Shown here one piece after another: positions 21,197 through 37,256 of a DNA stretch of 64,000 nucleotides. This DNA is from Branchiostoma floridae (Eukaryota > Chordata > Leptocardii > Amphioxiformes > Branchiostomatidae): contig NC_049996.1 in NCBI RefSeq assembly GCF_000003815.2, positions 1,282,751 to 1,346,750 of the forward strand, in the 5' to 3' direction. Numbering within the stretch: position 1 is the stretch's first letter; each line of letters opens with the position of its first letter. A program made the translations under genes and the position numbers. Below the pieces are notes generated by a model. That model was not told the origin of the DNA. It made no database searches and worked only from the letters and a program-made list of their open reading frames with translations.

Positions 21197-21349
21197 TTAC
21201 AGTTGAGTTATGTACGATGTGTCCCCTGCCAATACGTCTTCGTAGATTGGTCCATCCGGGGATAAGGCTGGATTGTCTACGCCGTTTCTGACTTTACCGT
21301 TTTCAATGTCGCCGTTAGATTTTCCCATCTCTTCCATCTCTTCATCATC
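21197..21349 (-). CDS. peptide transporter exon 23 (cytoplasmic tail, stop)
   Basis: Encodes residues 713-762, an acidic then polar tail (DDEEMEEMGKSNGD ... SYITQL), ending in TAA at 21197-21199. Confidence 0.88.
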   Translation of the reverse strand, partial: DDEEMEEMGKSNGDIENGKVRNGVDNPALSPDGPIYEDVLAGDTSYITQL

Positions 21350-24300
21350 CTGTTAGTGATAAAATAACGACAGGAAATGAACATCAAGGCTTCAAACAAG
21401 AATTTTTATTGAATAAAGAAACTCTTTTTACATAGCCATTGCTTCAAAGTCAGTCAAGGCAAATAAACAGGAAAAAATAAAAGTTCCTGCAGCCCCGAAC
21501 TTGACCTTTGTCTCCCTGACATTATCAACCTCCCAAATATCAAGATCCATGATATGTTTCCTGAGTTATGCAATGATACGACCGCATTCACTCCACCGTG
21601 ACGATAGTACAACCCAAAACATAATACCTTCATGGTGAAGGTAATAATCTATAGGGTTGGCATAAATCACAATACTGATTTTCCTGTAAATTTTGTTAAG
21701 TGTAGCTTTAAGTAGATTAACAGTAAGAAAAGCCTTTACCTTGGGAATTTCATTATATGTGTAGAAGTAGGCCATGATGGCAAAGATGATAACGACAGCA
21801 CCCATAAGGCCAGCAAACATGAAGAATTCAATAGCCTGGAAGATATACAAACATTAAACATATAATTACATCAAATACTGTGAAACAAACCTATTTCTTT
21901 ATATTGTACAATTTACTGCACTTTGTAAAATCATGATAGTATACTCCTGCACTTTCACACAGTCTGTGTCTTGGTATACACTGACTAAATGAATTTTGAA
22001 GATAGAAACATATAGAAAACCTTAATATATAGAAACGAAAATTGAAGAAGCATTTTATCATATCATGCTGAATTTGTTATCATTAGTAAGTACACTATTT
22101 CGTCTTCAACGCTTGATATACATGTTTGCTTCTGTCATTTTTGAAGAATCTTTAGAATATAGTATTATCACACATTTTATAATAGGTCTGTTCAATACAA
22201 TTCCATTTTACCACTTCTAGGTGATGAACTTATTTGATGGAAGACTACTATAATGATAGAATAAAAGGGTAACCAGCAACACTTAGGATTTCCATAGCTT
22301 GTCAGTCCGAGGAAATAAACTGTTGCTGTAGAAGGACTTGATGTGACCTAGAAGTGTCTAAAATAGCCAGGGACTGGTACCTTGCTTATTTCCATATCAT
22401 GTTTTCATACCTTGAATACACTGTATTTTTAATGTGTAATGAAACCCATCCACTGACCTGGTCTTCGATAAGCCTGGCCTCAGCAACAATCAGCACAATC
22501 ACGTTTCCAAAAGCAACTGTCAGCAACCAGGCAGCCTGTAGTACAGACTTCATGCTCTTTGGGGCCTGGAAGGGTTTTGAAACACATGTTAGATGATTCA
22601 ATTGAATGATGAAAAACCTGTTAAACCCATAATGTTAGCCCAAAGCACTTGTCCAAATGTTTTTTTTTCATCATCAAGAATGATATAAGCAGGTGTTGAA
22701 ATGTGTCATGTACTCAAAAGAACAGCTTTGAAATCTGAATGACGGGTAAATTATATGGGTAAACAAACATTCACTTTAATCAAACATAACCTCCTTGGCT
22801 TAACCAATATCTAGTATTCTTTAAAAAATGGTATTTAGGGATACCACGTTGATAGATGATGGTTTAAAATTGCATTTTTTTGGTTCAAAATATTGTTACT
22901 GAAACAGTAGTTTTAAACAAACATTCTTGACATTGCTCTTAGACTAGATACCAAATCTTACAAAACAAGGGATATGTTACCCCACAAATAAAGGTAACCT
23001 AACATCAGCAATTCTAGCAGCAGTTTGCTAAAGTCTACTGATATTGAGTAAACAACAATAGCTGTACTAACCTGTGAGTAGGAGAAGTCAAGCCCTGTAA
23101 CAGAGAAGAGAACCTCTCCAGTAGTGATGATGAAGTACTGAGGAATCTGGTACAGGATACTCATGGAGCTGGGCTCGGCATCAATGTAGCTCTCCACCAT
23201 GTTCTGAGGGAGGAAGAGAGTAACAACACTTGTAAGCCTTGGAATTATGAACAAACTACCATGGACCATAGTCCTCTTTTAACCCACAGTACAGGATACT
23301 CATGGAGCTGGGCTCTGCATCAATGTAGCTCTCCACCATGTTCTGATGGAGGAAGAGAGTAACAACACTTGTAAGCCTTGGAATTATGAACAAACTACCA
23401 GGGACCATAGTCCTCTTTTAACCCACAGTAAGTCCAGTGGTCTGAAAAATTGGACTTACTCAGGACTTTCTTTTCATCAGTGGTAACTTTCAGCACCAAG
23501 GACATAACCATAAACATTCGTAACTGTTACAAATCATATTTTTGTTTCTTGTCTTCAGGAAAAGTACTCCCTGATAGCACGTGCTAGAAATTGATTGTGT
23601 ATGTTAATCATATTAAGTAAGCAGAGATTTTAATGTACAACAAGTCATAATTCAGACCCTGGCTGCCAGTACTTTGTTTTACTAATAAACCATTTTTGAT
23701 TGATTGATTGATAAAACTAAGAAAACACATAATACTGATTCACCTATATCCATATTTAGGGATATCAAGTTGGTGGACAGTGGTTTCAAATTGCAATGTT
23801 TTGAATATTGATTTTAAAGCCATCATTTATCTAAATCAAGAGATATAGGTTACCCTGCAGATGAACTTCAAGTAAACTACCATCAGACAGTCTTTCTAGA
23901 TACACTACCTTCCTCAGGGCAATACTGACAAGTCATCTTTCCCACTACTAGGTTACACCCAGGGCACCGCAGTCAGTATTACACTACCAACAATGATTTT
24001 TTCTTATTTTGCTTACCCCATGGACAATTCTTGTATGAAGAAAAATATTCTTGCAGGAAGAAAATGTAGACAAAAATTCAAGCAAAACGAGAAACTACAA
24101 AATTTTTTTTAGACATTTAAGCAAAATCTTGTTTTTTTCTAACCAGATTCAACTCTTAAGAAATACAATAATTTTTTTTCTTCCAGGAAGATAAATGTTC
24201 TGTGAGGAAGCAAAACAAGATAAACATTGAGATAAGGCATTTTGAGAAATACAAGAAAACAAATCTTAAATTTTCTCAAAAACTTAACAAGAAAAAATTT

Positions 24301-27300
24301 GCTTGCCCCATGGACAAGCACATTTTTCTAACATTTCTTTGGGGACAGAATAATTTTCATCCTGGAAGATAAATTTTCTGTGAGGAAGCCAAACAAGATA
24401 CATAAGAAAAAGCACTTTTGGTAGTGTACATGTAGGTTGCCACAATGTTGATGTTTTTTTGTAAAGTCAGACTTGATACACCTGAATAGTTTTTTTTTAA
24501 CTGGACAATTCAAATCTATATGTCATGATGATCATAGAATCAATGATACATGTACATGCAAGAGTAGTAAGTTCATGAAGAAGTCCCACCTCTGTTCCAT
24601 CATTGTAGACAACAACAGTGTATCCACCACCATGCTCAGTGCTGAAGGTACCAACAAGCTCATCTTGATCTGCTTTGGTATTATTCACATATTGAAGCCT
24701 CACGTTGAAGCTGAAAGGAGAAAAGTTATAAATTCTTGTTTCACTTTAGTTTACTCTTTGCACATTGTACAATATTGCATATGAGCACACATGCAAAAGT
24801 AACATAATGCATAATAGCACATGATGAATTGTTGTTATTTTAAGCTTGCTTCACATCTATATTTCAATACTCAAAATGTTAAGTTTTCACATGCAAAAAG
24901 TTTGAAATTTGCGGATGAAAAAATAATGCTTGAGAAAAGGTGCGATTAAATAGAATTGAAGAAAGCCTCAAGCAGTTACCTACAAACACACATTACACAT
25001 TTGATGTCCACGTTCAAGGTTCAAGGTAGTTGCAAAGGCAAATTAACACGCATGCACATGAGCACACAATATACATGCACACATGCAAACACATACACAC
25101 ACAGGCAAATACACAGACACATGCACATACACACAAAACTCTTACAGTCACACAAACATTGTCAAACATCATCATGAACAACAACAAACAGTAATATTTT
25201 CTACAAACAACCAGCAACATTACTTACTCTCCTGGCTCTTTGACGACATACTCGGTCGCTGTTTCCATCTCGACATCAAAGTCATGGTTCACCTGTGTGG
25301 GAACTGCCTTGTTCTCAATCCTAACAGTGACGTTGTTACCAATGGTATCTGGGTCAAGCATGAAGATTACTCTGGAGAAAAAGAAGACATCTAGTATATG
25401 AATCAAAATTATTGCATTGAAGTCAGATATTACAGAAAAATCTGCAATGACTCAAATAGTAGTATCCATTATTTCAAAGGATTGTGGAAAAATGGTTGCT
25501 GAGGACAGGTGGTTGCTCATGTTAGGGTGGTGCTGATTATTTAGAAAAAACTGGACGGGACTGTTTTAATGTCGTTTGTGACTAAAGGTGGTTGCTTGAT
25601 GAGTTTTATCTGTATCTTTATTTCAAAAGCAGTGAATCAGCAGTCAAAAGAACCATTAGTGAGCAAGATAGTTAAAAAATGCAAAGTGTAGATCTAGCAT
25701 ACAAAATGCTGTCTGCAATAATTTGTAACTTTGGCATAGCATGAAATAATACTAAATTTAAGAACAAATCACAAACTAGATTAGCATAAAAGAAGCTGTA
25801 TTCAAGTTCTTACCTCATTTTTGGATCAGCTTTGTCTGGCTTATCCCAATCTGTGTGGAACTGTAAAGAAGTAAAAAGCACAAACTGTTGGACAAACGTT
25901 GATAGACTACTGGACCAGGTATAACCCATATGTTTGGTTGCAATGTTGAACATCACAGTCATACGTGCGACTTACATGTAGGGCCAATCAACTTGCAATT
26001 GGCCCAACACCCTGGTCAACCCAAGCAGCATTGGGGTTAGGGTTAGCATTACGTTTTAAGGGTTTTGGTTCAGATAAAGTACGGTTAGGGAAGGGTTCAG
26101 GTCTGATCTAAACAATAGGCAGAATTGGTAATGGGCAGAAGTGTACAACAAAATCCATGGCTTTAATGGCTAGCCTCACGTTTGTTTCAAGTATGTCTCA
26201 CATGTATCTTACCTGTGGGGGTGCATGGAGGGTTCCGTTCTTTTCTGTGATGATGACTGTATTGAACTCCTGATCTCCCATGTCCACTGGGTAGTTATTC
26301 AGAGGGTTTTTACCATTACAGGTAAAGTCGATGGTGTGGTTCCCCTTTGGAACATTGTACAGTTTCTGTTCTCCCTGCAATGGTGAGAGGTAAAAGTAAA
26401 GTCACATTTAGGCTTAGGTCCCAATTGCACAGATGCCCGTCAGGGATGTAGACTCAGTGGAGCTCTGAAGCCACGAATTTTGTCCCGGGGGACTGTCAGA
26501 TACCGAGGGTACCCCTCGGTGTTTCCCAATGGTAGGTCATAGCGTCTATTTGTTACCGGGTCCTGGGTCTGTTCTATACTCTGACATAAGTAGAACCCAG
26601 TGTCCGACCTGGCCCAAAAATACCTCTGGAGCTCCAAGGGGTCCCCCCAAAATAGCTCCTTTAAATGATGAGAACACTTAGTCTAGCAGTTCTCTTTGGC
26701 AACGAAGGAATACCAAGAAGGAGACAAAGAATTGTACTTGATAGGCAGTGTCAAATCATTGTCAAAGACATTGTCAAATCATTGTCAAATATATATTAAA
26801 CTTTCTGCTTAATTGTATAGCAATAGAAAAGAATGGGACAGACCTTGTAGGCAATTGCATCAAAGGCAGGTGGATTATCGCCAGTGAAAGGAGGGTCAAA
26901 GGTTGCCGTGAGTTCGCAGTCCGCCATGTTGATGATGCGCAGCCCTGAGTATCCTGCCGCGGGTGGTTGTGGGTAGGTGTTCTGAAAAATTATGATGTAA
27001 GAACAATCAGTATGCATAAAATATGAAGGTTGTCAAAAGTCTTTAGTAAAAAAGATGACCAACCAAGCCTGTGTGGTTGAAATGTTAGCTTTACAAAATT
27101 TATAAAAGTAAAACCTAATTTGGCCACAATATCCATGTTATCCTTCTGGAATGATAGTCACTGGTAAAGTTTGACAGTTAATTCATTCTTATTCCAAGCC
27201 TTAAAATCAGTTTTGCTGGAAGTGACTAAAAAGTCAAGTTATCCTTTATATTCATCATTGCATTATATTCAATTTCCTGAAATATATTATAAAGTTTGGT

Positions 27301-28350
27301 ATTTTTTACCATATCTAACTGTTAATCTAGCAAACAACTGTAAAATAACAGTTTCTACACAAAAGCTTTAATGATAGAATGCAGTTGCTATATAGGTCTT
27401 TACATGCATGCTCAATTTGCACACCAAAGAAATTTATATATATTTAAAAATGGTTACCTGAAGTGCTATCTGTATAAATCCAGCCACAACAAAAGCTCCT
27501 GCAGCAAAAGTCATACCAGCACACATCCTCTGCAAGGGCCTGAGAGATTTTCAATATAGAATAACATTGAGATAAGTTTTGCAAAATCTGGCAGTTGTTT
27601 TAATCCAATGTTTGTGATGAATTGGTCTACTGCATGTTGTGAGCATCAAAATAATTTTAGATAGACACAATAACGTTGCTACTTCGGTACACATAGCTTT
27701 AGTACTGGATACTTATTAAACAGAATCACTCAATACAGAGAGATATCTAGATTTACATAAAGATTTATATATAGTTGGTAGTTCATGTACCTGTTGGGAA
27801 TCTTGCATTTGTCCAGAATGGGGTATATCACACCCTCGAATATGGGGATGAGGATCAAAATAAGTGCTGGGTTGACAAACTGAAAAAAAAAGAATAACTC
27901 AATGACCCAGAGTACATGATTGTACATTCTACAAGTCAAATAAAATGCCACACAAATATGACAATCATAATTGTAATAACCATATTGTTACATATTGATG
28001 TCATGATGTTAATTGATAGGTAAACACACCTGGATCTGATCTGGCTTCATCTTGCCAAGTGGTCCCTGTTGAGTAAAAAGAAGCATATTCATAAACAACA
28101 ATTTCATTTGAAAGAATTGTCAGATTCTTAAAGGTACATCTTAATTAATCTTCTGCAAAACTGTTTAAAGATGAAAGAAGGAGAGAGTGAACAAGATAAA
28201 AAAAAGACAAAAACACAAAATGAGGAAAAGGGAAGGGAGAATGAGAGAGGAAAGAGAAAGAGGAGTGTGTGTGTGTGAGAGAGAGGAGAGACAGAGATAG
28301 AGAGAGGGAGGGAGAGACAGAGAAACAGAGAGAGAGAGAGAAGGAGAAGC

Positions 28351-28414
<64 letters not shown>

Positions 28415-31400
28415 AGCAACTGTAACATTATAGTCTGTAACGTTACTTACCAAGTCATAATTCATGCGGTAAGCTTGTAGAGTCCACCGGGATCCCTGAA
28501 TTTGAAACAGAATTTTAGTAAGTTGACATTCACACAAATTGTAAGCTGATTCCTTTGAAAAATAAAGATAAGAGAATTAATAAGAGAGGCATTGTTTGTA
28601 ATTCAAATCCATCTTTGTATCTCTAAGCTTAGTTCTGCTGTTCACTTGACTCACCTGTTGGTCGAACAGAGCCCAGAAGACAGGCAGTGGGATGTACATG
28701 TACAACACATGCAGCATGAACTTGATGTCACGAACAAGCTTTTTCTGCAACAGCAAGAGATAACATTACATTTCATTCTGTAAATAAAAGAAAGGCAACA
28801 GTATTCAAACAAACTTGGCAAGGATGTAATGTTATGTACCCTACACAATACCTGAGAAATGTTCTTCTATGTGTGAATGCAAGTCAGCACCAAGGACATG
28901 AGTTTTTCTTAATATTCTCTACTTAACGGTCTTAACCTCTTCTTTTTCTCATTCTTTCTCTGTTAAATTGGCCCGCTAGCTTTAGCATTATTTCTCCATT
29001 TGTGATGATTTGGTTAGCTGGGAACAGGGCTAATATAAGGGCAGCTTCTTGTTTTTCTGTCTGTACCCACGCAATGTTGTGTAATACTCTTAGCAACTTC
29101 CTTCTTGACCTGGTAAATCAATCTTGACATCAATAGTTTGCAACTTATTATGATGATTACCATGATCCTAGTTTGCTTTCCCTACAGCTTTAGACTATAA
29201 CTAACATCATGGCTCTAATTAGTTATTGAGGGAGGCATACTAACCTCATATTTGGTAGTGTCACAGTAGTCCATCCAGTGTTCCCTCTGCTCTCCTTCCT
29301 CACGATTCCAACGGTTCTTAACTGCATTCTGGACAACAAAAACTTTGTGATTATTTAACAGTACGGCATATCAAAAACAGGATATCTTTAATACTTATGT
29401 ATACTGTGAAGATGGGTGCATGGTTACACAGAATGATGTCTAGTGCTACACATCTGTTAGCAATACTTTAACAGTTATGGATGCTAGAATTAATCACGTG
29501 ACATACCCCAATGGCCTTTGACACCAGCACAACAACGTTCCCTTGTGGTGGGTTCCTCTTGTAGAAGGGGGTGCCGACAACAAACAGAACTGCAAAGATA
29601 ACGAACGATGCATACAATCATTAGATCTGTATCAAAAGCGCTACCTAGCAGTTTTTCTCTGAACTACTGAGGCATAATAAAAAACATTTTTCCTTTAACT
29701 CTGTAGAAACTCATATTACAACACTGGCTAGGCTGTCATTAGTTCACCATTATGAATGTAATCTATATCCGTTGTTTTTTCAAACAGGTTATTTTGGGAT
29801 GTAAACTGCAATATTTAAAAAAAAAAGACTCAAAGATTGCGAGAATTTCCAACTTACTTGTAGCAACCACCATCAGAATGGCGGGAACTCCGAAGGCCAG
29901 TGGGAAGCAGTCGGCACCATAGCACTGGACATCATCTGTGGATAAGTGTTTTGTTATTGATAAAGTATTTGCCATGATAACAGATAAACAAATAAACATG
30001 TTTTTGTAAAAATGTATATGTTTTGATTGGTTTGATTGGATTTCCTTGAGGAATAAAAGCCTTGCTAAAAGCATTTGGACAAATTTCATGTACAAAAATA
30101 ATGTAGCACTTTTTAAATCGTTCAATTTCCATTTTTATCCCTCTCAATCCAAGTCAGTTTATGAGTGACCTTCCATTCTCAAATTTGATAAGCAAGTATT
30201 TCCTCAAGAAAACCACAAAGTACATGACTATTCAATTAGCAGAACCGCTAAGTGCCAGATTGTATATTTACAGGTAAACCATGTTGTCTGTTGAGAGTTT
30301 GCACGTATACAACAAGGTCCGTATTTACTCCCTACTTCTAATACCTATCCAGTAGCAAACGTCAAGTGATTTTGAACTCTTCACCGCTGTGGTTGTCCAA
30401 AGTCCGTTTCAGTCAATTTGGCACCATGGACTTTGTCTGAACTTTTATCAAATGCAGTTTAATCGCGTGGACTTAACTTGTAGCATGTCTGGTCAAAAAG
30501 CGTTTGCGCAGCTATTAAGCCAAGGCTAAAAAGGTATGCTGTAAGTATTGTTTTCAAGGTGGGGTCAGACTTAAAGCTAAGACCACGTAATATTGATTGA
30601 CTCAAACCTTGATAAGGTGTATGGTAATTTCCGCTTATTTTGCAGTAAATGCCTATATCTTGATAGTGTTATAATGCAAATTTGATATAGTTACCTTGGT
30701 CATTTTTTTTCTAGCGTTAGGGTTAAGGTGATGCTAGGGTTAGGTCCAGGGTTAAAGATTTTTGTTTCTCACCATTACCAGATGAAAGTATTTAAATAAC
30801 CAGAAAAAATTATTTCCTAATAACGTTTGATGACCTTTATAGTCTATTTTTAAAGAATGTCACATTTGGCGCATCGTTAGGTGATTTTTATGATCTATTT
30901 TGAATACATTTGAACACAATCTAAATATATATATATATCATAGTATGAGTGAGTTCCCAATATCATTCTGAGCCAGTCAAGAAATCATCTAACAAAGAAT
31001 ACATCATCAAGCAAGCTGCCAGTTACGTAAATTGTACACCTAAAGTTCATTGACACCTGTAAATAACAAAACACTTAACATGGACGGATAGGCAAATATT
31101 AACAGCACTTTGGAACAAAGATTTGCTGATCACACTCAATTCTAGAAGAAACTGTGCAAGCTGAAAACCAGTTATTCATTAATCATGCCAATGCACCTTT
31201 GATATACGCTATGATTTCTATGTATTTGCATTGCATTGTTTGACCCCTTGACCTTTATGAAGATATCTTTTTCAAGGTTGAAAAAGACATAAGAACAACA
31301 TATTTTAATATGTTACCACAAGTTATCTAACGCTTGTTCCCGTGTATCTCTATGTTGTGCAAGGAATAATGAAGAGTACAAGTTGTCATATTAGTAAATC

Positions 31401-34400
31401 AATGATTGTATAGCATTTGACAATAAGCAATGAAGCTCAAGAAAAGAAGGCCTCTGTAATATTTTAGTATAATATGTAAACTACTTACCCCTAAGCAGAG
31501 GTGTGACCAGGGTTGAGATGAGACTGCCAGCGTTGATGGCAAAGTAGAAGATGGAGAAGAACATCTGCACTTGCTTTGTCTGTTTGGCAAGAAATGAGCT
31601 TTAAATTACATAATGCTTGCTACAAAACTTAACAACGAAGAACACAAAGAAAGCTATCCTGCATTCTTTTGGCATGTATAATTCTGAAACTAGCAGTTTG
31701 TCTTGTTATTTGGGGCTGTATGAATTGGTGAATCCATAGGATATTTGGTGCATATAGCAGGGGCTACAGAAATCAGATATATTCCTCCAATTTTTAAAGC
31801 TAATTTCCCTTCTCAGAATAGTTTCTCCGCAAAATAGTTGATATATAAGACGAGCAACTTCAAGCTAGAATATGACAGATACCACTGGCTATTAGAATAG
31901 GTCAGGGTTAAACAAACTCTGTATCTGCATCTGCCCTTTAGTGTAACAGTACCAGCTTTAAAGGCACGCGGTACGGCAACGGCAGCAACATTACACTGAA
32001 CAACTTGTCACACATTTACCGTCTAGCTGTACAACCTGTCACACCTAACCGTCTAGCTATACAACCTGTCACAACTAACCGTCTAGCTGTACAACCTGTC
32101 ACACCTAACCGTCTAGCTGTACAACCTGTCACAACTAACTATCTAGCTGTACAACCGGTCTCACCAAACTGTCTAGCTGTATATATAACCTGTCACACCT
32201 GTCTAGCTGTATAACCTGTCACACCTGTCTAGCTGTACAACCTGTCACACCTAACCGTCTAGCTGTACAACCTGTCACACCTAACCGTCTAGCTGTAAGC
32301 ATTGTTCAAAGCTATCTAATGAGAACTCCCCTACAGTACTTGGATTCCACTCTACAGTAGTTCTAGGGAAAGAGGAATTCCAAAGATCCTTTACCTGTCC
32401 ATCCTTGAACTGGTCACCTCCGAAGGCGGACACACACGGCTTGATCCCGCCCGTACCCAGGGCGATTAGGACTAAACCAATCATGGCCCCGGGTCTGGTA
32501 AAAGATACAACCAGTACTTAGGTCAGTAACATTCTTACTACAGACACCCTCTGGCTTAATTTTTGATTTCCAGTTTAATTTCGGACAAACCTTACTCATT
32601 TGAAAATTGACTAACCAAATGAATTGACATTTGCAGGTATGGTATATTCAAAGGTAATTGATATGTAGATTGCAATTAGATGTCTCAAGGAACAAAGCCA
32701 ATTCTTGAGAATTCTGGCTCTGCGGAGAATTCTAGGAACCTGAGCCAGAATTCTCTTGAATACTCCGGAATTGTCTTTGTTCCTGGAGACATCTAATTGC
32801 AATCTACATATTGATAACCTTTCAATATATCATAATTGCAAATGTGAATTCATTTGGCTTATCGATTTTCAAATGATTAAGGATTGTCCAGAATTAAACT
32901 GGAAGTCCAAAATTAACCGGATGGTGTTTACAATGATTGCAATAGGGGTGTTGTATTTACAGAATTCTGAAAATGGTTCTATTGTGTTTATTGTATGATC
33001 CTTCATTGCTCAAAGGCTTTTGTAATGTGATGATCATGTTGATGATGAAACACAATGAATAGAATGAACTGGTTCATGCATTAAGATTGTCGTGGTTCAA
33101 AGGCATATGTGATGATTGTGTTGATGAAACAAAATGGATAGAATGAACTGGTTCATGCATTAAGATTGTCGTGGTTCAAGGTTTGTGGTGATGACACACT
33201 GAGCCATGATCACACGTTTAGCTGTACTTCATGATATTTTGCATGGAAACTTTTTCATTGAAAATAGATGAATCTTGGTTTATACTTTCCATAGTAATAG
33301 CAGTGCTTCTCGTAAGGTCTATCAGTCACACCTTTCAAAATTTTGCGGCAGTTCTCTATAATCTAACTAGAGCTTTAGCACTCCTATGGAAGAGAGGACG
33401 CTTTCCTTAACTTTCGGCATTTTAATCCAAAATCATTTTACTGAAGGTTTTTCATTGCTTAGCTACATGTAAGTGCAAAACATTACATCAACCAGAATAT
33501 GTAAAAATCATAGGGACGCCATTATGCTTATATATTACAAGCAGATGAAGGCAGACAACTTGTGAAATTGTTATGAAAACATCATGAAGTACAACAATAT
33601 TTGTGCAAGTGATGATTATGGCAAACAGCTCGTGCGGTGTAAATAACGTGCAAAAAATCACAAACTCATGACCATTATCATTGTGATGATAACTGGTAAA
33701 AATGATGGTCGTATTATTTTATCTGATGATGATTGAAAATGAATATGATGGTCAAAGGCAACTATAACTGCCTTTGTGGTTTTGATGATATTGTGAATGA
33801 TCTTTACAATGTCATGACTTTGATAATGATGTTGATAATGATATCAGTGATCTTAAAAACTGGCAGTACATTGATGATAATGATCTTGTTAATGGTGGTG
33901 TTGTTCATGATAATGTAGATGATTATAACAATGATTCTCCATGCATGCATGCACTTTGCATGGAATAAACAAAGACAATGGTTGGAATGAAACATGCAAA
34001 TCTCCTCACTCACACAACATTAACACTGCTTATGCTACGGTCACAATTGGAACAAAAGGGGCCCCACGGTGTAGTTTAAGGGCTGTTATTGTATTTGGAG
34101 GCGTGACCCTTACGTGGCCCCGTGGTGCGCACCAGGCTATATTTGGGCACGGCCGGGCCCCGAATATTTCAGAATCGGAGTTAAAATCAACCCGGGGTCT
34201 GGCGATAAGTCAACGACGTGAGCTATTCGTGAACCCCGCGAGATTTAGATATCGCGAGGTCCCCGTGCGTCATCCGATAGTCCGACGGGACAAATTTATG
34301 GCTACACCCCGACGGGCACCAGCGAAATTGTGACCATAGCATTAGCAGCCATGATAATGATGATCGGACATGCAGCAATGATTGGCCACGCGGCAACGGC

Positions 34401-37256
34401 AAAGCGAGATGCCGAGGGTACGATGGAACTGCCATTCTCATGCTTTAAAATCTTCTTGATCGATTTTCGGCAGTATCCAAAGATGTACCCTCTAAGACTT
34501 ACATGTTCGCCTGTGGTGACACTCCGTAGAACGGATATGGAGGAGGTCCGAAGAGAGAGGAAATGGACAAAACAAAATTGCCAATGGCGTAGAGGATGGA
34601 GACCGACACTATAGTCCTATATGAGGTGCAGATGGATGAAAACATGGAATGATGCAAAAGCAAGCTGTTACACATAGCTACATGTAGGGCCTTTCTCCAA
34701 ATCTGTTCGTCATGACAGTCATCTGTAGCAGTCAAAATTCATCAGTGACTTTGACTCTCCTCTTCAATTAGAATGTTTTGGAATAGGGTATGATCTAGAA
34801 TCTTAGAATGACGATCTTTTAATCTGTCGATCCTAGAATGACGATCTTAGAACCTGACGATCCTATAACCCGACGATCCTAGAACTTTACGATCCTGGAA
34901 CCTGACGATCCTAGAATCTGACGATCCTAGAATCCGACGATCCTAGGATGTTAGAATCTAAGAATAATAATCTTAGAACCTTGGAAGAATGACCTTCAAG
35001 TCGATGGTATTGGAATCTAAGAATGATGATCTTAGAATCATCGAATGCTAATCTTAGAATGGGCATTTTGAACTTCGAATAATGATCCCACAATATTAGA
35101 ACAAAGGTCTCAGAATGATGATGCTACAGAATTCAGTTCGACGAACAGGTTTGGTGATGACGTGCAAGCATGGACGATGGTCAGCTCTGGCAGAAGCTTT
35201 CGTTACTTATTAGATACGTACATCTTGCCAGACGGCGAGGGTCCAAGGAATGGATACGGGTGAGGTCCCACGAGATCTGACAGGGACATAATCAGATGCC
35301 CAAGACAGTAGACCATTGACACCGACACTATTGTCCTGGATTAGGTAAGTTCATCAATGGGAAGAAAACATCATCATCCACAGATCAAACGCATTCATGT
35401 AATCACGTATCATGTCGTCAGGAATGTCTTCGAAGCATAAGATTTGTATACTGCAATATAGAAATAATTGACATGGCATCAATGATGTATTAGTCGCTCT
35501 ATTAGATCATTATTATCATGCTATTACATCAAGTATTATCTTATATCTATTTGGTCCATTTTCAATTCAGATTTGAGCATTGGAATGTCATTTTGGGTTC
35601 GTAGGCATTTGGTTCCTGTCACAATTGTCTAAATAAGAAAATTGTAAGGAATGTTAGTAACGGTGACTCTGCGATGCTTCCTCTCTTTGTGGGCTTGTTT
35701 ATCAGACCTGTAAAAAGGAGGGGTAACCAATATTCGTTGTTTTTAAAAACAAGAATTTAGTAGGGATGTATAGCCGACGAATATTGGTTTTTAATAGCAA
35801 AATTTTCAAAATATGTAACAATACAAAATAGGAAACATCGTCTGTGTACTTGATATCCTAAATAACCTTTTTCTTTTTTTAAAATAACGGATATAGGTTA
35901 CCCCGGCTGCGGATTAAGGTGATCTATTGTTTAAAAAGTCTCTGCGTACCAGTACTTTCCGAGCCAACTGTCTGCCATGATGGCGCCGAGGATGGGAGTG
36001 AAGTAACAGCCGAATGTGAAGGCATGGTAGATAGCTGTGGAGGTGGAGTCATCAAACAGCAGCGCTTCCAGCAGGTAAATGGTCAGAATTGCTGCAATTG
36101 ACAACAAAGCAATCAACAAAAGAGATAACAAAAGTACAGCGGCATTCGTCAGGATTTCAACATCTCTATATGCATACATACATGCAAACAAGTGGATACA
36201 AATGGAGTGAAAAATAGGTATAAGAAAATGTCAACATGCTGAGTTTAACATATCGTATACACTACTGGTATTAAGGTCTAAACATCTTTGACATATTTAT
36301 CTATTTAAACACAGTTATCCCCTCCTAGAATGTGACGAAATATATGTATGGGATTGGAATGTATTGGATTCTTTTGAACAAGTAGTAAGAATCGAAGGAT
36401 GAGCAGCTTTGTAAAGACCAAGGCATGAGACTTTTTTTAAAGAACAGATGATATTTATTGCCAAAATTTACCAAAGAAAACATAAACATCCGCGAACAGT
36501 GTGCCTTGTGGAATTGAAGGTGGTAATAGTCAGGACTATAGAAGAGTAAATGTTAGAGATTGTGCATGAAAACTTAAACAAAGTATGTATATGTACCTTA
36601 TTTTCGTTCAAGCAGCTAGTAAAGGGAATATGAAAATAAGAAAAGTTTTGCTGTACTTACCTTTCATGCCATAAAAGGAGAATCTCTCGCAGAACTCATT
36701 TCCGACGATGAACCCGATACACTTGGGGAATCCACGGAACTTGTCGCAGAACTGAAATGCATAAAGATTAAGAATTTTACCTTCGTTCTTCGACAAATTT
36801 AAACATAGTACATGTATCATAAATTTGGGAAAGAAATCAACAAGGAAAACGTAAGACGTCTTACGTTTTTTAGCATTGGAAGATTGATAATGATACATCG
36901 TGGCGTTTTCTCTTTTGTGTAATCAATACAATAAGAAATGCCGCGGTACTCAAGCTACTACAACGTATATAGTGACGTTGTTCCCAAAGTTTTGCTACAT
37001 TGTTGAAGTCAGTTTGTCAAATAAATTATCAGAATACCGTTGAATAGAGAATATAAAAGCGTTTTCTGCAAATGTTAGCTAATGATAGCTAGACAGATTT
37101 TCAAAAATCCATGTGGAATGGAACAACATCAGTTGATGAACAGCCGTAACAAAATCTTTATTTTGATAAAATTATTAAATGTTAAATTTTTACCCCAGGA
37201 TCCTCCTCTGGCTCTTGCTCCATCTTAGACTTCTCCTCGCTTTCTCCGCGACCCAT
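21197..37256 (-). CDS. SLC15A1/A2-like: proton-coupled oligopeptide transporter (PEPT1/PEPT2 type), complete
   Basis: Twenty-three coding exons per transcript, all GT..AG with consistent phases, encode 762 residues (human PEPT1 has 708, PEPT2 729). The protein would move di- and tripeptides with protons into the cell across the plasma membrane. Visible are the POT motif E40xxER44F with YG at 48-49, His74 in helix 2, GTGGIKPCVSAFGGDQF (about 150-166), helix 7 FWALFDQQGSRW (about 305-316), a large extracellular domain (about 397-612, exons 15-20) between helices 9 and 10, and SYSQAPKSMKSVLQAAWLLT in helices 10-11. The extracellular domain separates PEPT1/2 from the peptide-histidine transporters. 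Exon 4 occurs in two alternative copies (34,503-34,616 and 35,222-35,335). The start ATG has no competitor upstream in its exon. Whether it is orthologous to A1, A2 or to both needs a tree. Confidence 0.93.
21740..21835 (-). CDS. peptide transporter exon 22 (last membrane helix)
   Basis: Encodes residues 681-712: FFMFAGLMGAVVIIFAIMAY, a strongly hydrophobic helix 12, then YTYNEIPK. Confidence 0.92.
22458..22565 (-). CDS. peptide transporter exon 21
   Basis: Encodes residues 645-680, including APKSMKSVLQAAWLLTVAFG, the best-conserved C-terminal block of PEPT proteins. Confidence 0.95.
22830..22998. repeat. partial GTTCACCTTTAT-family MITE (intron 20)
   Basis: Contains ttagggatacc and gggatatgttacccc followed by ataaaggtaacct, matching the ends of the element at 19,799-20,005 but degraded. 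Confidence 0.45.
23072..23203 (-). CDS. peptide transporter exon 20
   Basis: Encodes residues 601-644: end of the extracellular domain, then LYQIPQYFIITTGEVLFSVT and GLDFSYSQ (helix 10). Its 5' half with the acceptor is duplicated at 23,289-23,428. Confidence 0.95.
23150..23428 (-). repeat. 139-bp tandem duplication covering the 5' half of exon 20
   Basis: The segment from acaggatactcatggagctg to ttttaacccacagt occurs at 23,150-23,288 and again at 23,289-23,428 with few differences. The second copy includes a working-looking acceptor and a truncated exon in the same frame, but lacks the exon's own donor. It lies upstream of the true exon in transcript order. Confidence 0.85.
23752..23862. 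repeat. partial GTTCACCTTTAT-family MITE (intron 19)
   Basis: Contains ttagggatatcaagttgg and agatataggttaccctgc, shared with the copies at 19,799-20,005 and 22,830-22,998. Confidence 0.5.
24005..24400. repeat. diverged tandem repeat of about 180 bp in intron 19
   Basis: The phrase ttgctt(a/g)ccccatggacaa occurs near 24,010 and 24,300, and aagataaat(g/t)ttctgtgagg near 24,188 and 24,367. This indicates two diverged copies of a longer unit. Confidence 0.55.
24590..24710 (-). CDS. peptide transporter exon 19 (extracellular domain)
   Basis: Encodes the last base of Asp560 and residues 561-600, including YVNNTKADQDELVG and GGGYTVVVYNDGTE. An N-glycosylation-type NNT is present. Confidence 0.9.
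25228..25371 (-). CDS. peptide transporter exon 18 (extracellular domain)
   Basis: Encodes residues 512 (last base) to 560 (first two bases), including VIFMLDPDTIGNNVTVRIE and YVVKEPG. Confidence 0.9.
25814..25860 (-). CDS. peptide transporter exon 17 (extracellular domain)
   Basis: A 47-nt exon encoding residues 497-511 (FHTDWDKPDKADPKM) and two bases of Arg512. Phases agree with both neighbours. Confidence 0.88.
26213..26374 (-). CDS. peptide transporter exon 16 (extracellular domain)
   Basis: Encodes residues 443-496, including GEQKLYNVPKGNHTIDFTCN and NTVIITEKNGTLHAPPQ. It has two N-glycosylation-type sequons (NHT, NGT). Confidence 0.9.
26844..26981 (-). CDS. peptide transporter exon 15 (start of extracellular domain)
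   Basis: Encodes residues 397-442, including YSGLRIINMADCELTATF and FDAIAYK. Confidence 0.9.
27458..27539 (-). CDS. peptide transporter exon 14 (helix 9)
   Basis: Encodes residues 370-396: PLQRMCAGMTFAAGAFVVAG and FIQIALQ. Confidence 0.92.
27791..27879 (-). CDS. peptide transporter exon 13 (helix 8)
   Basis: Encodes residues 340-368 and two bases of Arg369: FVNPALILILIPIFEGVIYP. Matches the PEPT helix 8 block. Confidence 0.93.
28030..28065 (-). CDS. peptide transporter exon 12 (36-nt micro-exon)
   Basis: Encodes residues 328-339, GPLGKMKPDQIQ. Both splice sites and phase 0 at each side agree with its neighbours. Confidence 0.88.
28217..28411. repeat. (GA)n/(GT)n microsatellite in intron 11
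   Basis: Imperfect then perfect ga dinucleotides with a short gt run. It creates spurious Ser/Leu-rich open frames on the minus strand. Confidence 0.95.
28451..28495 (-). CDS. peptide transporter exon 11 (45 nt)
   Basis: Encodes residues 313-327, GSRWTLQAYRMNYDL, completing the FDQQGSRW block with exon 10. Confidence 0.93.
28655..28744 (-). CDS. peptide transporter exon 10 (helix 7)
   Basis: Encodes residues 283-312, ending YMYIPLPVFWALFDQQ, the diagnostic helix 7 of PEPT transporters. Confidence 0.95.
29245..29328 (-). CDS. peptide transporter exon 9 (cytoplasmic loop)
   Basis: Encodes residues 255-282, a charged loop ending REHWMDYCDTTKYE, matching the HWLDWA-type loop of PEPT proteins. 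Confidence 0.9.
29507..29589 (-). CDS. peptide transporter exon 8 (helix 6 end)
   Basis: Encodes residues 227 (two bases) to 254, LFVVGTPFYKRNPPQGNVVV then LVSKAIG. Confidence 0.92.
29858..29935 (-). CDS. peptide transporter exon 7
   Basis: Encodes residues 201 (two bases) to 226 plus one base: DVQCYGADCFPLAFGVPAIL, including two cysteines conserved in the family. Confidence 0.93.
29936..31488. other. intron 6, nothing recognised
   Basis: About 1.55 kb of AT-rich intron with a short (ta)n at about 30,927 and degenerate ttaggg-like bits near 30,715. No exon duplicate or transposon end is visible. Confidence 0.4.
31489..31579 (-). CDS. peptide transporter exon 6 (helix 5)
   Basis: Encodes residues 171-200 plus one base: MFFSIFYFAINAGSLISTLV, the FYFxINxGS signature of POT transporters. 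Confidence 0.95.
32008..32297. repeat. 30-bp minisatellite in intron 5
   Basis: Nine or so units of cgtctagctgtacaacctgt plus cacacctaac, some shortened. It ends about 100 bp before exon 5. There are no spacers of distinct sequence, so it is not CRISPR. Confidence 0.95.
32395..32494 (-). CDS. peptide transporter exon 5 (helix 4)
   Basis: Encodes residues 137 (last base) to 170: GLVLIALGTGGIKPCVSAFG then GDQFKDGQ, the second PTR2-family signature. Confidence 0.95.
32535..32940. repeat. long foldback element, about 185-bp arms, in intron 4
   Basis: Sequence from cagacaccctctggcttaat to gaattctggctc is matched in reverse complement out to 32,940. Blocks such as gattgcaattagatgtct and ccagtttaatttcggaca appear on both arms, with a loop near 32,722-32,740. 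It has no coding capacity. Confidence 0.8.
33005..33200. repeat. 79-bp tandem repeat in intron 4
   Basis: The block gatgaaacacaatgaataga followed by atgaactggttcatgcatta recurs at a 79-bp interval, with a partial third unit. Confidence 0.8.
34030..34345. mobile_element. about 310-bp MITE with GCTAYGGTCACAATT ends
   Basis: The left end gctacggtcacaatt (34,034) and the right end aattgtgaccatagc (ends 34,340) are inverted copies, with similarity continuing a few bases outward (tgcttatg/cattagca). The interior is GC-rich, unlike the surrounding intron. The duplication at the insertion site is unclear. Confidence 0.65.
34503..34616 (-). CDS. peptide transporter alternative exon 4b (helix 3)
   Basis: Encodes one base of Trp99, residues 100-136 and two bases of Ile137: TIVSVSILYAIGNFVLSISS then LFGPPPYPFYGVSPQAN. 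The acceptor is catatag, the donor gtaagt. Same length and phases as exon 4a at 35,222-35,335; identity is 21 of 38 residues. Either copy joins exon 3 (ending KYTG) to exon 5 in frame. Confidence 0.92.
34790..35110. repeat. about 18-bp minisatellite between exons 4a and 4b
   Basis: Variants of gacgatcctagaa(c/t)ct repeat with about 18-bp spacing, becoming irregular (agaatgatgatcttagaatc) toward 35,110. Confidence 0.85.
35222..35335 (-). CDS. peptide transporter alternative exon 4a (helix 3)
   Basis: Encodes TIVSVSMVYCLGHLIMSLSD then LVGPHPYPFLGPSPSGK, flanked by the same partial codons as exon 4b. The acceptor is taatccag, the donor gtacgt. Open and in frame over all 114 nt with conservative replacements, so it looks maintained rather than decaying. 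Inclusion of both 4a and 4b would keep frame but add an extra helix, which would disturb the 12-helix fold. Confidence 0.88.
35708..35924. mobile_element. GTTCACCTTTAT-family MITE (intron 3)
   Basis: Ends at ggatataggttaccccggct and gcggattaaggtgatc, and starts with a gggtaacc-bearing inverted end. It stops about 25 bp from exon 3's donor. Confidence 0.5.
35950..36091 (-). CDS. peptide transporter exon 3 (helices 1-2)
   Basis: Encodes two bases of Ala52, residues 53-98 and two bases of Trp99: ILTIYLLEALLFDDSTSTAI, then YHAFTFGCYFTPILGAIMAD with His74, then SWLGKY. Confidence 0.95.
36661..36751 (-). CDS. peptide transporter exon 2 (ExxERF motif)
   Basis: Encodes residues 22-51 plus one base: FPKCIGFIVGNEFCERFSFY then GMK. 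ExxER couples proton binding to transport in this family. Confidence 0.95.
37194..37256 (-). CDS. peptide transporter exon 1 (coding start)
   Basis: Encodes residues 1-21, MGRGESEEKSKMEQEPEEDP then G, a charged cytoplasmic N terminus. The ATG is preceded by catcaac and by an exon-like 5' leader back to a cttttgcag acceptor at about 37,319, which suggests at least one upstream non-coding exon. Confidence 0.8.

Follow-up and report, generated by a model that had tools for sequence, protein, structure and literature searches.

The window analysed here, 64 kb of the Branchiostoma floridae genome (NC_049996.1, positions 1,282,751 to 1,346,750), contains a predicted PEPT-type peptide transporter gene, gene A, in which the exon for transmembrane helix 3 (TM3) occurs in two adjacent copies, exons 4a and 4b. 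The gene model is complete, running on the minus strand from an ATG at 37256 to a TAA at 21197, which corresponds to C18:1303947-1320006 in the assembly, and GT-AG borders are found at 23/23 intervals among its 24 exons (the duplicate exon 4 counted). The features on which the argument turns are as follows (positions are those of the window; lengths in nucleotides, nt).

21197..37256, minus strand: gene A, a PEPT-type gene, whole coding region (23 exons plus the duplicate exon 4; 762 amino acids)
35950..36091, minus strand: exon 3, TM2 and the start of the TM2-TM3 loop, ADSWLGKYW
35222..35335, minus strand: exon 4a, encoding TM3 and the outer loop after it, TIVSVSMVYCLGHLIMSLSDLVGPHPYPFLGPSPSGK(I); AG/GT borders, phase 2/2, open
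34617..35221, minus strand: intron between 4a and 4b, 605 nt
34503..34616, minus strand: exon 4b, the alternative copy, TIVSVSILYAIGNFVLSISSLFGPPPYPFYGVSPQAN(I); AG/GT borders, phase 2/2, open
32395..32494, minus strand: exon 5, TM4, GTGGIKPCVSAFGGDQF

Two interchangeable copies of exon 4

Exons 4a and 4b are each 114 nt long, enter and leave in phase 2 and have one open frame, which encodes TM3 from the residue aligned with Thr83 of human PEPT1 together with the outer TM3-TM4 loop. Spliced between exons 3 and 5, either copy alone gives the full-length product of 762 amino acids. Joining 4a to 4b keeps the frame and gives 800 amino acids with the helix repeated; skipping both leads to a TGA at codon 99. 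An earlier note on this DNA had placed the four exons, given 4a and 4b their length, phases, GT..AG borders and intact frames, and stated that the two together keep the frame and add a helix; on re-reading, all of this is as claimed. So is its count of 21 matching residues out of 38, made up of 20/37 whole codons and the split-codon Ile that both copies share after splicing. Nucleotide identity is 74/114 (25/38, 31/38 and 18/38 by codon position), and tblastn aligns the pair in the window with E = 1e-11. As adjacent homologous exons of the same phase, with intact splice sites and both open, 4a and 4b have the make-up of a tandem duplicated pair. It is confirmed that gene A, a single complete gene, has two intact, phase-matched and interchangeable copies of exon 4 that have diverged without decay.

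Three PEPT-type genes were found in the genome: A and the paralogues B (C18:11.79 Mb) and C (C3:18.27 Mb). The remaining matches to PF00854, on C3, C11 and C15, look PHT-like, as judged from the matches and not gene by gene, and the 64-kb window holds no second PEPT-type gene. In the stretches fetched, B has a single TM3 exon of 114 nt with the same phases as those of gene A, and C a single shorter one with the same flanking phases. No third copy of the TM3 exon was found in the window or in the fetched stretches of B and C, where a hidden Markov model scan of 4364 frame segments identifies four TM3 exons, the next match having E = 1.1. Genome-wide searches, which took in the 513.4-Mb assembly of 431 contigs, returned one match for the DNA of 4b, and 4a, 4b and one paralogue exon for the peptide of 4a, in both cases among the best candidates scored. 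The assembly has exact matches to both degenerate AmphiSYCP1 primers of PMC5803294, the forward one at a single place in the genome and the reverse one about 3.2 kb from it on the other strand; a Branchiostoma lanceolatum primer for the middle of that gene shows 2 mismatches. The genome is accordingly that of an amphioxus, probably other than B. lanceolatum. The GFP family, used as a further amphioxus marker, gave no match, and neither did the controls, so that result carries no information. After the exon-20 homologue of paralogue B lies a minisatellite with a repeat of about 43 bp (C18:11797118-11798231), built from the end of that exon and encoding LFSITGLEFSYSQ or near variants repeatedly.

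By its sequence gene A is a PEPT1/PEPT2-type SLC15 transporter, for which proton-coupled di- and tripeptide transport is predicted. Its product matches human PEPT1 with E = 6.4e-168 and PEPT2 with E = 4.3e-162, and is nearer to these than to the PHT group (SLC15A3/A4, at best E = 1.7e-30). PEPT1 (SLC15A1) and PEPT2 (SLC15A2) belong to the same protein family, with 251/426 and 239/428 core positions outside TM3, respectively, identical to gene A; in mammals they are two genes, whereas gene A is one gene with two exons. The product scores 359.2 bits against PF00854 (POT family; curated cut-off 27). TIGR00926 is the best of five families (E = 1.3e-220, 671/671 positions), but at 734.3 bits it falls below the curated cut-off of 821.6, and the label ‘PEPT-type’ therefore rests on PF00854, the proximity to PEPT1/2 over PHT, and motifs. 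The motifs are ExxER in TM1 (NEFCERFSFYG), the TM2 histidine (TAIYHAF, aligned to His57 of human PEPT1) and a large outer insert before TM10 (roughly residues 396-610, between core alignments).

The locus carries other repeats. At 23289-23345 on the minus strand lies a near-identical duplicate of the beginning of exon 20 (23203-23072), truncated at its 3' end and accompanied by part of the preceding intron; a stop is met on reading on, and the duplicate is probably a relic of recent date rather than another alternative exon. The 4a-4b intron contains a 16-nt tandem array (34809-34946), and the 4b-5 intron a sequence resembling a miniature inverted-repeat transposable element (34026-34348) with 23-nt inverted ends; the query 34020-34355 gives at least 40 matches including itself (best 40 of 185), the remaining matches being incomplete and 66-85% alike. 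A foldback element whose 159-nt arms are 86% complementary (32556-32916) lies immediately before exon 5, and the 5-6 intron has a 30-nt minisatellite (31996-32297).

Divergence and age of the pair

The number of nonsynonymous (dN) and synonymous (dS) substitutions per site between 4a and 4b is 0.364 and 1.027 by NG86, and 0.37 and 0.761 by YN00. At this distance neither copy has acquired a stop or an indel or lost a splice site, and Ile84, Ser88, Tyr91 and Gly94 (human PEPT1 numbering) do not vary among 4a, 4b, B, C and mammalian PEPT1/2. Exon 4 is less conserved, and evolves faster, than the remainder of the gene: identity between A and B is 16/37 for 4a (p = 0.012) and 14/37 for 4b, against 180/280 elsewhere.

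The duplication is old. Third positions agree at 17/37 codons between 4a and 4b, and identical residues use the same codon in 11/20 cases; the corresponding values for the rest of gene A are 120/280 (43%) and 82/170 against B, and 70/168 (42%) and 47/108 against C, in segment sets that leave out exon 3 and poorly aligned stretches. By these two measures the pair does not differ from the A/B or A/C comparison. At the level of the exon itself the two copies are somewhat closer to each other than 4a or 4b is to B, and this tilts the balance towards a duplication later than the A/B split: the copies share 9/37 and 10/37 third positions with B (p = 0.087 and 0.147) and the same codon at 3/16 and 5/14 identical residues (p = 0.041 and 0.315), and dS against B is saturated for one copy and 3.87 for the other, compared with 1.03 for the pair. 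The loop GPxPYPFxG, common to 4a and 4b, found in part in B (GPDPHPIPG) and absent from C and the mammalian proteins, argues for a duplication in the A/B lineage, unless homogenisation has made the loops alike. The 4a-4b intron, searched against the flanking introns for residual similarity that might date the event, gave nothing of note (best chance match E = 0.15).

Choice between the copies

The earlier note had proposed that transcripts choose between the two helix-3 exons. Choice remains the best reading because both copies have stayed intact over a long divergence and can replace each other, and because double use would repeat a membrane helix; its exclusive character is drawn from this anatomy. 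We consider it probable that an ancient tandem duplication gave rise to the two TM3 exons and that transcripts take 4a or 4b in a mutually exclusive manner. Such splicing would probably be regulated by cell type or stage. Scored with a position matrix built from the other sites of gene A, the exon 3 site (CTG/GTACGC) is second weakest and the 4a site (4.77) third weakest among the 23 donors, and the 4b site (3.34) is third weakest among the 23 acceptors; these weak sites could represent a balance that regulation might tip. Three further elements of the introns enter the argument.

35125..35157, minus strand: 5' arm of a long-range stem predicted to form within the intron between 4a and 4b; pairing probabilities in its core approach 1
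34694..34727, minus strand: 3' arm of the same stem, inside the 4a-4b intron
33465..33474, minus strand: 10-nt stretch perfectly complementary to the 4b donor (ACATGTAAGT) and roughly 1 kb downstream of it; a weak lead only

The ends of the 4a-4b intron have 25.4 expected joining pairs (mean 3.2 and maximum 25.3 in 40 shuffles), and the intron folds with z = -3.63 in one run and -2.64 in the run shared with other introns. A number of observations count against exclusive choice or against a mechanism for it. Of 13 other introns between 300 and 700 nt long, two match or exceed it in folding strength (1-2, z = -2.98; 21-22, z = -2.85), and the predicted stem leaves about 141 nt, which is too long for simple steric exclusion. 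No intron-intron duplex above shuffled controls was found with RNAduplex in five pairings with 25 shuffles each, a crude test of whole-intron duplexes in which the 2-kb intron was cut in two. NOVA-type YCAY motifs are dense on either side of 4b, at 36.4 and 37.8 per kb where the median is 15.6. Intron 8-9, however, reaches 39.3 per kb, and the count in the 4a-4b intron does not exceed a Markov control (p = 0.10). Paralogues B and C manage without a second TM3 copy in the stretches fetched, and the basis of the whole reading is the genomic sequence of one amphioxus species.

The single TM3 copies of B and C, and the evident tolerance of exon 4 to change, would also suit a gene in which one copy is used while the other, silent or decaying, happens to look intact. 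We think this unlikely: both copies are open, equal in length and bordered by GT-AG, and both have kept the family residues at a dS of about 1. When one copy was allowed to drift freely in simulation, 11/314 accepted runs (1500 started) retained at least 20/37 residues and 4/314, about 1%, did so without a stop; these runs were made without indels, which would lower the latter figure. An assembly artefact, in which two haplotypes or paralogues were stitched into one locus, deserves mention since amphioxus genomes are very polymorphic. With 40/114 bases different and flanking introns without similarity, the copies differ much more than alleles would; the genome-wide searches, among the best candidates scored, showed no further copy, and the rest of gene A occurs once in the window save for the partial copy of exon 20, making such an artefact improbable in the extreme.

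A further reading takes 4a and 4b as cassette exons that can be joined, yielding the 800-residue protein with its extra helix. Joining them carries no frame penalty, the 605-nt intron between them is not very short, and no U12-type donor occurs in the gene; under exclusive choice, regulation or RNA structure would thus have to prevent it. The repeated helix would, on the other hand, invert the topology of everything downstream, an argument also made for exon pairs encoding membrane helices in PMC5740500, and we regard routine joining as very unlikely.

Mutually exclusive choice in gene A would be of a known kind, tandem duplicated exon substitution, as described in PMC9741552 and PMC5740500, whose precedents include SLC12A1 and SLC25A3. 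Exons 4a and 4b share with those events the adjacent homologous exons, the equal phase, the encoding of a folded element and the integrity of both copies; exclusive use of 4a and 4b is what the genomic sequence suggests. SLC12A1 (NKCC2), like gene A on this proposal, is a gene for a transporter in which copies of an exon are used in a mutually exclusive way (PMC9741552). It encodes a cation-chloride cotransporter, whereas the product of gene A is of the major facilitator superfamily, so the two come from different superfamilies and no common ancestry is implied. The alternative exons of SLC12A1 cover a membrane helix and tune transport. ‘SLC15’ does not occur in the main texts of PMC9741552 and PMC5740500, and no helix-3 exon choice in SLC15 genes, PEPT1 and PEPT2 included, appears in the titles and abstract openings of the literature matches listed.

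Helix 3 and the PEPT1/PEPT2 difference

The earlier note had also suggested that exchange of the helix might alter affinity or proton coupling. In rabbit PepT1, mutants of Tyr91 in TM3 have altered affinity, and the Gln and Arg mutants lose stimulation by pH; Tyr91 is proposed to lie adjacent to His57 of TM2 (PMC3510438), and His57/His87 takes part in outer gating (PMC8565842 and PMC11265797), which is proton-dependent. Tyr91 itself is identical in 4a, 4b, B, C and mammals, and any effect would therefore come from neighbouring residues or the loop. Around it 4b and 4a differ (Cys/Ala at 92, Leu/Ile at 93, His/Asn at 95), so a kinetic or coupling change between the two proteins is plausible, and we suppose, with less confidence than for the splicing, that their kinetics would differ. 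A helical-wheel test gives no support for the 4a/4b differences lying on one face (p = 0.53).

The differences follow a pattern that the earlier note does not mention. Over 21 helix columns, 4b has 13 matches each to human and mouse PEPT1, and 7 and 6 to human and rat PEPT2; for 4a the counts are 10 and 9 to PEPT1, and 12 and 10 to PEPT2. The preference of 4b for PEPT1 is clear and that of 4a for PEPT2 slight. Discriminating columns pair 4b with PEPT1 and 4a with PEPT2 in 7/7 cases by identity (one-sided exact p = 0.0078) and in 8/8 by BLOSUM62 (p = 0.0039), in a sign test that is post hoc, uses two mammals per paralogue and includes several columns with I/L/V/M exchanges. A column-shuffle test (p = 0.0002; 0.014 with hydrophobic columns alone) was set aside, as shuffling breaks the column-specific alphabets, and the sign-test value of 0.0078 is used. 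A tree of the helix separates 4a, B and PEPT2 from 4b, C and PEPT1 (support 36/77, long branches flagged). Holding 4a and 4b together costs 2.49 log-likelihood units (approximately unbiased test, p-AU = 0.305), a cost that does not reject an origin shared by 4a and 4b alone. Outside TM3 the tree joins PEPT1 to PEPT2 (94/99) and A to B (72/92). A topology that unites A with the mammals to the exclusion of B and C is rejected there at p-AU = 0.003 (long-branched PHT outgroup).

The 21 columns are too few to separate inherited exon types, convergence and chance. TM3 exon types older than the gene duplications would mean that an ancestral PEPT gene had both, that the 4a type was kept in PEPT2 and paralogue B and the 4b type in PEPT1 and perhaps C, and that gene A still chooses; we hold this history to be unlikely, and divide what remains about evenly between convergence and chance. 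Were it correct, one amphioxus gene would give a PEPT2-like and a PEPT1-like transporter through alternative splicing, and the roles that vertebrates divide between two genes would partly go back to a choice between exons; PMC9741552 describes such a change for relatives of FYN and for CACNA1F/CACNA1S. Had these helix states instead arisen by independent convergence, that would be almost as informative about function.

If both exons are used, gene A would place an exon choice in the transport core of a carrier family relevant to nutrients and drugs and, with only a single helix and loop exchanged, would constitute a natural swap experiment. The likeness of the 4a/4b difference to that between PEPT2 and PEPT1 would make it a direct test of whether TM3 helps to set low- versus high-affinity behaviour.

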